61,060 bases of DNA, taken from assembly GCA_017883205.1 (NCBI GenBank), contig JADGNZ010000036.1, forward strand, positions 1 through 61,060, written 5' to 3'. The notes under the pieces are model-generated. The model was not told the origin of the DNA, made no database searches, and was given only the letters and a program-made list of their open reading frames with translations. Each line of letters opens with the position of its first letter. Position 1 is the first letter of the stretch. The stretch comes from Thermoanaerobaculia bacterium. Lineage in GTDB: Bacteria; Acidobacteriota; Thermoanaerobaculia; Gp7-AA8. Both the position numbers and the translations under genes were made by a program. Below, one piece after another: positions 14,942 through 35,458 of this stretch.

Positions 14942-15172
14942 GAACACTATCGTGTTAACTCAGAACACTATCATGTTAACTCAGAACACTATCATGTTAA
15001 CTCAGAACACTATCATGTTAACTCAGAACACTATCATGTTAACTCAGAACACTATCGTGTTAACTCAGAACACTATCGTGTTAACGCAGAACACTATCGT
15101 GTTAACGCAGAACACTATCGTGTTAACGCAGAACACGATTGTGTTAACGCAGAACACGATTGTGCTGATGAA
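14942..15172. repeat. Tandem array of 21-bp units, 11 copies (core AACACTATCGTGTTAAC)
   Basis: Eleven consecutive 21-base units start at 14942, 14963, 14984, 15005, 15026, 15047, 15068, 15089, 15110, 15131 and 15152 (the last one degenerate). Each carries the inverted repeat AACAC-TATC-GTGTT. Variants are ordered along the array: TATCATG in units 2-5, TATCGTG in 1 and 6-9, GATTGTG in 10-11; spacer ACTCA in 1-6, ACGCA in 7-10. Unit identity is too uniform and the period too short for CRISPR. Because 21 is divisible by 3, the array is open in several frames and encodes meaningless heptapeptides. Confidence 0.9.
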
Positions 15173-32841: not shown

Positions 32842-33028
32842 CACAGACAAGAGTGTCTGTGCCACACAACCCTGCCACAAGCGCTGCTTGGTTTGACACA
32901 GATACTCCTGTCTTTGCCACAGAACCCCGCACAAGCGCTGCCTGGTGTGGCACAGACACTCCTGTCTGTGCCACATAAATTCCGCCACGAGCGCTGCTTG
33001 GTGTGGCACAGACACTCTTGTCTGTGCT
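32842..33028. repeat. Tandem repeat, ~55-bp units with CACAGACA-type hairpins
   Basis: Units begin at 32842, 32897, 32951 and (partial) 33007. Each starts with an inverted repeat CACAGACACTCCTGTCTGTG or a variant and continues GCCACA..., ..AAGCGCTGCTTGG. It fills the gap between the GNAT and GluQRS genes; no other feature is seen there. Confidence 0.87.
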
Positions 33029-33056: not shown

Positions 33057-33926
33057 TCACGATGAACCCAACCGCGCCGGCTCGAATCGCCTCAACGCTT
33101 CCGCCAACATGCGCTGAGGAGTGTCGGGGACAACCTCAACTCCGAGCACCCCCAGCGCATAGGCCAGTGTCTCCGCTACGTGCCGCTCATCGAGCGACGG
33201 CAACGGCAGCGCGCCGTCGCGTTTGCCGAGCTTCGAGCCATCCGGATTCGTGACCAACGGCAGATGCGCATAGCTCGGAGTGGGCAACCCCAGCGCGCGC
33301 TGCAACGCGATCTGCCGCGCCGTCGATGAGAGCAAATCCGCGCCGCGAACCACCTGCGTCACCCCTTGCGCCGCATCGTCGACGACGACAGCGAGCTGAT
33401 ACGCATAGACCCCATCGGCGCGGCGGATGACGAAGTCGCCGGTATCGGCAGCGACGTTTTCTTCGACGTGTCCAGCGACTGCGTCGTCGAATGTGAGGAC
33501 GATATCCGGCGCCCGAAACCGGATCGCCCGTGCAACGCGGCCGGCCGGCAGTCCCTCGCGGCACGTTCCCGGATACACCGGCTCGCGTCCGAGCGGAGCA
33601 GAAGCCGCACGCTGCAGGTCGGCGCGCGAACATCCGCAGTCGTACACGAGATGCCGCTCGCGCAGAAGACGGAGCGCCTCGTCATACAGCACCGTACGTT
33701 GCGACTGGTAGACGACGTCGCCATCCCACGTCAGCCCGTAGCGCTCGAGCGCAAGCAGAATCTCTTCCGCCGATCCGGCCACCACCCGCGGCGTATCGAG
33801 GTCTTCCATCCGCACCAGCCACTGGCCCCCTTCCCGCCGCGCAAATAGCCACGAGCCCACCGCGGCGACAAGGCTGCCAAGGTGGAGCGGTCCGGTGGGT
33901 GAGGGAGCGAAGCGGCCGACAAGCAC
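33057..33926 (-). CDS. gluQ: Glutamyl-Q tRNA(Asp) synthetase
   Basis: 289 residues of GluQRS, a shortened glutamyl-tRNA synthetase that attaches glutamate to queuosine 34 of tRNA(Asp). It shows GRFAPSPTGPLHLGSLVAAV (HIGH-like signature), RMEDLDTPR, the zinc-site cysteines in VYDCGCSRADLQ and GTCREG, FVIRRADGVYAYQLAVVVDD and the KMSK-like SKLGKRDGALPL. It lacks the anticodon domain, as the family does. GTG 33926 is the most sensible start; longer frames read the inverted repeat and array upstream. Family length (~290-310) agrees. Confidence 0.9.
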   Translation of the reverse strand: MLVGRFAPSPTGPLHLGSLVAAVGSWLFARREGGQWLVRMEDLDTPRVVAGSAEEILLALERYGLTWDGDVVYQSQRTVLYDEALRLLRERHLVYDCGCSRADLQRAASAPLGREPVYPGTCREGLPAGRVARAIRFRAPDIVLTFDDAVAGHVEENVAADTGDFVIRRADGVYAYQLAVVVDDAAQGVTQVVRGADLLSSTARQIALQRALGLPTPSYAHLPLVTNPDGSKLGKRDGALPLPSLDERHVAETLAYALGVLGVEVVPDTPQRMLAEALRRFEPARLGSS

Positions 33927-33955
33927 GATGCGATCGTAATCTCTACACGGCGTGG

Positions 33956-34052
33956 ATGGGGTCAGGTCTGAAGTATGAAGTGACGAAATCGCAGGTGTCC
34001 CCATGAAGGACGATTTGTGTTTCGTCACTTCATACTTCAGACCTGACCCCAT
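33956..34052. repeat. Long inverted repeat with 33-bp perfect arms (REP/MITE-like)
   Basis: Positions 33956-33988 and 34020-34052 are exact reverse complements around a 31-base loop. The tip of each arm, GGGGTCAGGTCTGAAG, is of the kind I associate with elements mobilised by REP-associated tyrosine transposases (RAYT). No transposase is in this window, so it would be non-autonomous. It lies between the GluQRS start and the 21-bp array. Confidence 0.8.
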
Positions 34053-34063
34053 TCGCTCGAAAG

Positions 34064-34110
34064 GACGGCGTCACCTCCTTCGACCCGAGCCCCTCGCGAA
34101 TGACGCCGTC
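34064..34110. repeat. Inverted repeat GACGGCGTCA / TGACGCCGTC
   Basis: Perfect 10-bp arms separated by 27 bases, filling the space between the 33-bp-arm element and the first 21-bp unit. Confidence 0.55.
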
Positions 34111-34131
34111 TGCCTCGATATCGAAACCGCC

Positions 34132-34448
34132 CCCCTCGACATTGGAAAGGTCCCGCTTGCAATTGGAGACGCTCCCTTTCGAAACGGAGGTGTTCCGTTT
34201 GCAAACGGACGCGTTCCGTTTCGAAACGGAGAAGTTCCGTTTGACATTGGAGACGTGCCGTTTCGAAACGGCGGTGTACCCTTTGCAAAACGGAGGCGTT
34301 CCGTTTCGAAACGGCGGTGTACCGTTTGCAAACGGCGGCGTTCCGTTTCGAAACGGTGATGTACCGTTTGCAAACGGCGGCGTTCCGTTTCGAAACGGTG
34401 ATGCACCGTTTGCAAACGGCGACGCACCGTTTGATATCGGGGAAACGC
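34132..34448. repeat. Array of ~15 units of 21 bp with alternating palindromes CCGTTTCGAAACGG / CCGTTTGCAAACGG
   Basis: Unit starts at 34132, 34153, 34174, 34195, 34216, 34237, 34258, 34279, 34301, 34322, 34343, 34364, 34385, 34406 and 34427; one unit (34279) has an extra base. In the core the palindrome centre alternates strictly, CG then GC, in successive units (34174 CG, 34195 GC, 34216 CG, then 34258-34406 alternating). Edge units are degenerate and several have ACATTGG or ATATCGG in place of the right half. It lies in the divergent intergenic region between gluQ and a membrane-protein gene. Open frames through it encode only PFRNGGV/PFANGDV-like heptapeptides on either strand. Confidence 0.92.
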
Positions 34449-34470
34449 CGACAATTTTTGTCACTTCACT

Positions 34471-34512
34471 CCCCGACCCCCGACCCCCGACCCCCGACCC
34501 CCGACCCCCGAC
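34471..34512. repeat. GACCCCC microsatellite
   Basis: About six 7-base copies of CCCCGAC just before the membrane-protein gene. A related G-rich form is at 41654. Confidence 0.75.
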
Positions 34513-34534
34513 GTCATCCGCTACCATCCCTGAC

Positions 34535-35458
34535 ATGGACGACGATCGCGGATTCTTCGAGGCATTCATCGGCGACGGCCGGTCGCTGATCAAACTGACG
34601 GCGCTGATGATGATGGGCGCTGGCGCGTTTGCGCTCTTCCAGGCCGGCACCGGCCATTTCCTTCCTCAGGACACCGACTACCTCGGCATGACAGCAGCAC
34701 AACTCTGCACGCTGCATGGATGCAGGATCGTGCACTTTATGGTTCACGACCGCGTCTCGTTCGGTGGCGTTCTGCTGGCAATCGGGGTGATGTATCTCTG
34801 GCTCGCTGAGTTCCCGCTGCGCCGAGGGGAGACGTGGGCGTGGTGGGCGCTGGCGATCAGCGGCGGCGCCGGTTTCCTCAGCTTTCTCGCCTACCTCGGC
34901 TACGGCTATCTCGACTCCTGGCACGGCGCGGCCACGCTCGGACTGCTGCCGCTCTTCATCGGCGGACTCGTACTCACGCGATCGTTGCGCGTCGATCGGC
35001 AGCCACGTCCGCCGCTCGATTTTCATTCACGCAACGGTGTGGGACGCATCCTCCTGCTTGCGGCCACGTTCGGCATCGCCGCCGCCGGCTGCACGATCAT
35101 GACCGTCGGCATGACGACGGTCTTCGTCCCGCAAGACATCGAATACATGGGCATCACGCCGGCGGAATTGCACGCGGTCAACCCGCATCTCGTGCCGCTC
35201 ATCGCCCACGACCGTGCCGGCTTCGGCGGCGCCCTCATCTCAGCCGGACTGGCGATGTTTCTGGCCGTGCTCTACGGCCGCCCATCGCGCAGCCTCTGGC
35301 AGGCGCTCGCGACCGCCGGCCTAGCCGGCTTCTGCCCCGCCATCGCCATCCATCCCGTCATCGGCTACGTCAGCATGTCCCATCTCGGGCCTGCGATCCT
35401 CGGGTGCTGCGTGTTCATCGCCGGCATGGCGATGACCGTGCGTCCGAAAAGCGTTTGA
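34535..35458 (+). CDS. Polytopic membrane protein with internal duplication
   Basis: 307 residues, about eight membrane helices. The halves repeat one another: FLPQDTDYLGMTAAQL, then HFMVHDRVSFGGVLLAIGVM (about 42-92), versus FVPQDIEYMGITPAEL, then PLIAHDRAGFGGALISAGLA (about 206-256). The paired HDR/FGG motif in each half hints at a functional site at the membrane face. I do not recognise a named family. ATG 34535 is chosen because everything upstream in frame is array sequence. Confidence 0.75.
   Translation: MDDDRGFFEAFIGDGRSLIKLTALMMMGAGAFALFQAGTGHFLPQDTDYLGMTAAQLCTLHGCRIVHFMVHDRVSFGGVLLAIGVMYLWLAEFPLRRGETWAWWALAISGGAGFLSFLAYLGYGYLDSWHGAATLGLLPLFIGGLVLTRSLRVDRQPRPPLDFHSRNGVGRILLLAATFGIAAAGCTIMTVGMTTVFVPQDIEYMGITPAELHAVNPHLVPLIAHDRAGFGGALISAGLAMFLAVLYGRPSRSLWQALATAGLAGFCPAIAIHPVIGYVSMSHLGPAILGCCVFIAGMAMTVRPKSV

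Follow-up and report, generated by a model that had tools for sequence, protein, structure and literature searches.

Direct repeats of ~18-22 bp, two helical turns apart, are found in plasmid iterons and in helically phased operators, where they place the bound proteins on one face of the DNA. Promoters recognized by extracytoplasmic function (ECF) sigma factors have AAC in the -35 region and CGTC in the -10 region. BrickBuilt is a minisatellite-bearing miniature inverted-repeat transposable element (MITE) of Porphyromonas gingivalis (PMC4596501) and, as far as excerpts of that report go, is the nearest described element that we found in the open-licence literature. Here we describe a tandem array of 21-bp units in a 61,060-nucleotide stretch of DNA (contig JADGNZ010000036.1 of assembly GCA_017883205.1; the whole stretch is referred to as the window) from a Thermoanaerobaculia bacterium whose genome we call G000. 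Beside some arrays of this genome are genes for mutually related proteins of 170-240 amino acids, which we call the UGF family. We lean towards the view that the array in the window is a solo copy of the array that stands upstream of a UGF gene in a lineage-specific, multi-copy cassette.

The array (34132-34447, plus strand) contains 15 units, 14 of 21 bp and one of 22 bp. Its sequence and period are as described in the original prediction, a note made from the sequence of this stretch. That note also described CG- and GC-centred palindromes in strict alternation and every unit as perfectly self-complementary, and both descriptions held in part. Nine of the 15 units are a perfect 14-bp palindrome plus a 7-bp spacer, with the CG- and GC-centred kinds alternating. 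CCGTTTCGAAACGG is exact in five units (34216, 34258, 34301, 34343 and 34385) and CCGTTTGCAAACGG in four (34195, 34322, 34364 and 34406). The other six units (34132, 34153, 34174, 34237, 34279 and 34427) deviate. Strict alternation fails at three of them: the interior unit at 34237 belongs to a third type (GTTTGACATTGG), the final unit to yet another (GTTTGATATCGG), and an additional A in the unit at 34279 moves the register. Even so, units of like kind are never adjacent, and thus the 42-bp pair proposed as the true repeat is real. Tandem Repeats Finder (TRF) also favoured a period of 42 (score 336) over 21 (scores 226 and 207); a 127-bp row scored 361. A four-unit stretch was more self-complementary than column-permuted controls (p = 0.017), and the array strand folded as single-stranded DNA was more stable than shuffled sequences (z = -7.6). 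Both ends of the array are decayed. By eye, the edge units at 34111-34173 (plus strand) resemble the degenerate edges of arrays on contigs C62, C64 and C2 of the same genome.

Arrays preceded UGF genes much more often than expected by chance. We followed three array families through the whole of G000 and compared their positions to 63 listed UGF places. Nine of the 16 non-query arrays were within 1 kb of a UGF match, and in all nine cases (9/9) the array was upstream. By family, the counts were 6/8, 2/4 and 1/4. The chance per array is 0.02, which gives a binomial probability of 5e-12 if the arrays are independent. Two of the three families were picked for the UGF gene next to their query array, and the query arrays themselves were excluded from the count. 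Two of the nine linked arrays are at contig ends, 925-963 bp from the UGF match.

The DNA that we sampled from G000 and its relatives gave further cases. A UGF gene or fragment had an array no more than 500 bp upstream at five loci in G000 (L155, L168, L170, L064 and L153), two in the relative G002 (L264 and L054) and one in G001 (L217). The one period-21 array sampled from G001 is ~440 bp upstream of a UGF gene. At L192 in G009, an array is 55 bp upstream of a weak UGF match split over two frames (E = 0.05). The L159 array is 1.5 kb upstream of a UGF gene and the L185 array is no nearer than 4.4 kb. Genes within 500 bp of any array were 69 of the 756 called. L054 and the array on C64 were found by means of array patterns and so are not independent evidence in this part of the analysis.

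In the cassette, a 21/22-bp array would immediately precede a UGF gene. Some copies have an ECF-sigma-like promoter between the two, and a hairpin follows the gene in the cassettes inspected for one. The promoter-like sequence found between array and UGF gene in part of the cassettes is GTAACC-N15/16-CGTCTNAG. Searching 889 kb of G000 for the motif G[TG]AAC[CTA]-N14-18-CGTCT-N-A gave eight matches, six of which were upstream of UGF genes. The remaining two are at L188, beside a contig-end array with no gene in view, and at L185, at the 3' end of a UGF gene. G002 had two matches in 323 kb, one at the L264 UGF gene and one with neither array nor UGF. There were none in 180 kb of G009, 131 kb of G001 or 793 kb of other genomes, the last including 293 kb from ten genomes outside the UGF search. 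A stricter form of the motif was found eight times in G000 (in six cases no more than 300 bp upstream of a listed UGF match) and twice in G002 (1/2). The distance from the array end to the promoter was 52-102 bp at the five places measured.

At least once, an array, promoter and UGF gene were copied as one block. L155 and L168 (C1:74 kb and C1:327 kb) have in common a 1,220-bp block with 87% identity that begins inside the array, ends 68 bp beyond the stop codon and holds the array, the promoter, the gene and, by eye, a hairpin after the stop codon. BLAST found no match beyond this block on its 3' side. L153 is the same cassette with only the 3' part of the UGF gene, that is, a natural intermediate towards a solo array.

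Two other arrangements were seen in G000. At C2:37438-41979 (L170, L171), three tandem UGF genes are behind one array, and each has its own ECF-like motif. At L154:13799-13985 there is a 91-bp tandem duplication with the ECF-like motif GTAACC-N15-CGTCCAAG and no 21-bp array listed alongside.

UGF genes and the arrays co-occur across the relatives sampled. A UGF profile had 64 matches in G000 (fragments included), 53 in G002, 25 in G009, 7 in G001 and 2 in G016, and none in the other 35 of the 40 genomes searched. Period-21 arrays were present in the DNA sampled from the first four of these five genomes; G016 was outside the array sample. Several UGF matches are at the extreme ends of G000 contigs (C82, C9, C100, C22, the start of C30 and the end of C2), and so the assembly probably breaks at repeated UGF genes and the family is undercounted. 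Pfam had no match for the three UGF members compared to it, and NCBIfam had no UGF match. Three candidate assignments were rejected: one marginal match in PHROGs (0.053), a match to Cmr5 in PADLOC (0.0026) for one of eight members, and a best match in PDB to an 'Alpha solenoid protein' (0.0015). One UGF protein of the eight had no relatives in viral contigs, plasmids or phages. In the open-licence papers searched we found no description of such arrays or of the UGF family.

We searched G000 for relatives of the window array itself, using BLAST and a two-unit pattern. The same family of arrays, called CCGTTT here, is present at four other loci: C62:1077-1350, C64:31544-31742, C1:61566-61976 and C2:153041-153203. 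Weaker BLAST matches on C25, C54 and C32 were inspected and contained no arrays. More distantly related units are in arrays at C1:184 kb and C5:0.8 kb. Three of the four sister arrays alternate two unit types: CGAAACGG and GAAATCAG on C62, GGAAACGG and GAAAAGGG on C64, and GACATTGG and CACTTCGG on C1 at 61 kb. Based on these unit sequences, the 42-bp module is general in the CCGTTT family and perfect palindromy is not; the arrays at C1:61 kb and C2:153 kb carry CCGTTTGACATTGG-type units. Because perfect palindromy is not kept in the sister arrays, the suggested CG/GC methylation switch is unlikely as a general function of the family.

One member of the family is close to a UGF gene. The C64 array is 385 bp upstream of one, and among eight UGF proteins compared, that of the G001 cassette is closest to the C64 protein (0.51). 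Among the arrays compared, the best unit match to the G001 cassette array was the array in the window (z = 5.2); the C64 array was third (z = 2.9). The window array has no gene or promoter of the cassette, belongs to the family of the C64 array and matches the units of the G001 array, and for these reasons we read it, with reserve, as a putative solo copy of the C64/G001 cassette type.

The array had been proposed to be a dedicated operator, with two related dimers on the CG- and GC-centred sites controlling the two flanking genes. To its left is gluQ (33057-33926, minus strand; glutamyl-Q tRNA(Asp) synthetase type, tRNA-synt_1c), now supported by a match to PF00749 (E = 3.6e-43). To its right is a gene for a membrane protein (34535-35458, plus strand) that has no Pfam match and by eye contains two similar halves, as had been said. 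The divergent gap, the perfect palindromes and the 21-bp phasing are consistent with an operator, as is the presence of an array upstream of two XRE-like small genes, one at 14.9 kb in the window and one at L187. However, a search of the genome for further copies, set beforehand as the test of this proposal, returned the four described above, and the genes beside the five CCGTTT arrays are mutually unrelated, in gaps that are divergent, tandem or convergent. At seven other array-bearing gaps the array was not conserved together with its neighbouring genes either, and palindromy was not kept in the sister arrays. In the congener G001, a glyoxalase gene directly precedes gluQ with ~100 bp between them, and neither the array nor the membrane protein gene is present at this place; in G002 the sequence at the gluQ place is different. 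We therefore consider a dedicated operator of gluQ and the membrane protein gene improbable.

The arrays upstream of the XRE-like genes (window 14942-15164 and L187:4379-4785) are unrelated to each other in sequence, and the small genes look XRE-type by eye. The two proteins match each other at E = 8e-9. An array upstream of an XRE-like gene is an arrangement that resembles the UGF cassettes.

The copies of the CCGTTT family are dispersed, intergenic and head-to-tail, as in a minisatellite-bearing MITE. Flanking sequences are common to C62 and C64, and to L153, L155 and L168; the window and C62 can be aligned over the array only. We saw no common terminal repeat by eye among the array copies, and no systematic search of their ends was made. 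By DNA similarity, the family was found in none of 99 relatives. With one mismatch allowed, the two-unit pattern had one or two matches in 8 of the 99, about as many as a backward control pattern, which happened upon the 21-bp arrays of G002 itself. One of the eight matched at a UGF cassette, G002:C216. A widespread known repeat was considered and rejected: the exact two-unit pattern was found in 35 stretches of genome_contigs, a search that may omit records of the source genome, and 34 of the stretches had one listed match. Identity at a lag of 21 exceeded 0.7 around the match only at L088 and L091, where the units are different. The exact array pattern was absent from viral contigs.

The 21-bp period that the note had seen in both the window array and the array at 14.9 kb is found throughout the genome. 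An autocorrelation scan of 889 kb of G000 (C62 and C64 were sampled because arrays were known there; C1, C2 and C5 were chosen partly for known arrays and taken in long runs) found 52 arrays, 31 with a base period of 20-22 and 11 with a base period of 41-43 (42/52). TRF gave the same period peak. Such periods were found for 13 of 15 arrays in 317 kb of G002 (including regions C24, C26 and C119, sampled because arrays were known there), 5 of 11 in 180 kb of G009 and 1 of 4 in 131 kb of G001. No such arrays were present in 500 kb from 13 genomes with zero UGF matches, and the ten genomes outside the UGF search had one weak period-21 array in 293 kb. Periods of 21, 22 and 43 bp coexist, and the unit sequences diverge strongly among arrays (for example, GAACACTATCGTGTTAACTCA, AGATCGCGATCTACCAAGCAT and GTCCGGACTCAAGAAACTAAG). 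Dyad symmetry was above that of column-permuted controls (p ≤ 0.05) in 22 of 59 arrays, where ~3 would be expected.

Could the arrays be coding? A frame at 34100-35458 is open through the window array into the membrane protein gene and 21 bp corresponds to seven codons, so the array could be read as heptapeptides at the start of that protein. However, the unit positions conserved in the family include, by eye, third codon positions of this frame, the window array contains a 1-bp insertion, periods of 22 and 43 bp are found in other arrays, and the coding score to the left of the window array was 1.2. None of the 59 arrays had an open frame running through it with a coding score above 15 on both sides (the highest was 14.5; the consensus routine behind this test leans to period 22 and was used for this test only). 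With no array supported as coding on both sides, and with the periods of 22 and 43 bp, we rejected coding heptads in general; for the window array we regard them as very improbable.

Array sequences turn over quickly between relatives. We compared seven array-bearing gaps of G000 (at tgt, yyaL, gltX, proS, rpiA, fur and purE, named by eye) to the matching places in G001, G002 and G009. In 19 of the 21 comparisons there was no periodic array in the 0.7-1.2 kb flank (best identity 0.57). In the other two, G002 at rpiA and G009 at fur, there was an array of period 21 built from a different unit; the G002 array adjoins a UGF gene. The gene across the gap was recovered in 14 of the 21 comparisons. 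The yyaL gap measures 594 bp in G000; in G001 and G002 it is a few tens of bp. At gltX, G001 and G002 (L259 and L258) have runs of AATGTTG-type heptamers in inverted pairs and no 21-bp array; these 7-bp repeats are another fast-changing class.

A purely mutational origin is the main rival to the cassette. Here, a mutational process of the lineage (slippage, unequal crossing-over and template switching at hairpins) would spread selfish or neutral 21/22-bp minisatellites into tolerant gaps, and duplications of UGF genes would carry arrays along. With arrays masked, 33 array segments could be placed between genes, 19 tandem, 7 divergent and 7 convergent (six others were at sequence ends and three within a masked frame). 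These contexts match the background of gaps of at least 100 bp (178 tandem, 65 divergent and 49 convergent), as expected of satellites. Also on the side of satellites are the decayed edge units, the 36 of 42 array segments with no UGF gene within 1 kb, and the fact that only 2 of the 21 matching gaps in relatives had a period-21 array, and that of another unit. Taken alone, however, satellites leave unexplained why a two-turn period is kept over so many sequences and why the array is upstream in 9 of 9 UGF-linked cases. We consider this origin possible but on the whole doubtful.

Several results weigh against the solo-copy reading of the window array and against the cassette. It has no adjoining UGF gene, UGF fragment or ECF-like promoter, and just one of the five arrays of its family has a UGF match. 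The unit match between the G001 and C64 arrays is weak, and the two are on opposite strands relative to their genes. A UGF gene is within 1 kb of only 6 of the 42 array segments sampled (5 of 35 gaps). The promoter motif is missing at L064, L054, L217 and L192 despite the presence of an array and a gene, and its stricter form was found in none of 38 other genomes, including the UGF-bearing G001, G009 and G016. Not every linkage case is an independent event: several of the nine are copies of a single cassette type, and several linked arrays of the best-linked family precede closely related UGF genes. Relatedness of UGF proteins and relatedness of arrays were not significantly correlated (Mantel p = 0.13-0.18). 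Dyad symmetry was not significant in 37 of the 59 arrays, including that at 14.9 kb, and UGF isoelectric points (pI) range from 4.7 to 10.2, with no DNA-binding family matched. Because the promoter is confined to part of the cassettes and UGF genes are at few of the array segments, the odds that we give to the cassette, and to the wider repeat system proposed below, are slightly reduced.

Other repeats are present around the window array. Between gluQ and the array, at 33955-34053, is a long inverted repeat seen by eye (GGGGTCAGGTCTGAAGTATGAAGTGACGAAA followed by its reverse complement), a separate REP-like element; Rfam gave hairpin-type matches on 33952-34056 that were below the gathering score, and nothing above it. 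Between the array and the membrane protein gene, TRF found the heptamer repeat (CCCCGAC)6 at 34471-34512. A palindromic dispersed repeat, GCACAGACAAGAGTGTCTGTGCCAC, is at 32854-33027 in the window, at L064:8838-8934 and at ~14400-14650 of L135 in G002; it stands downstream of gluQ both in the window and in this congener.

How might a cassette work? From the two-helical-turn period and the frequent dyad symmetry, we infer that a dimeric DNA-binding protein recognizes each unit. Its dimers would sit on the same side of the helix at intervals of two turns and bind cooperatively over the array, and the array would then act as an upstream regulatory or docking element. The binding protein may be encoded by the UGF gene itself or be some other regulator; UGF pI values vary widely and no DNA-binding family was matched, which favours neither. 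Arrays without a gene would be remnants or array-only copies that decay or are homogenized by slippage and unequal crossing-over, and they may function as decoys. More speculatively, and we think it somewhat unlikely in full, the whole could be an undescribed repeat system. There would be dozens of UGF paralogues, each originally with its own rapidly renewed, helically phased and often palindromic array, some behind an ECF-like promoter. The cassettes would spread without a recognizable transposase and leave solo arrays behind at many more places. Each array would be matched to its paralogue, and the genome would then contain a large set of distinct arrays of protein-binding sites that serve private regulation or cassette homing.

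In either case, one lineage has many intergenic arrays of differing sequence with one two-turn period, partly tied to an expanding UGF family. Should the arrays be matched binding sites, they would form a natural library in which proteins are paired with phased sites, and would point to a route by which bacterial genes can spread together with a regulatory array of their own. Should they be neutral, they would be a clear bacterial example of satellite-like turnover.

Compared to the known systems, GTAACC-N15/16-CGTCTNAG upstream of some UGF genes fits the form of an ECF promoter, but no sigma factor is tied to the motif, which is present at a subset of UGF genes only. As in iterons, the direct repeats are about two helical turns apart. 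Unlike iterons, these arrays have no replication initiator tied to them, are on many contigs and vary in sequence from array to array. The similarity to BrickBuilt, so far as the excerpts describe that element (PMC4596501), is in the multi-copy, intergenic, head-to-tail and spacerless arrangement with a repeat of about two helical turns (23 nt in BrickBuilt). By the same excerpts, the arrays described here differ from BrickBuilt in that no common terminal repeat was seen by eye, many unit sequences are found at one period, and some copies precede one gene family.
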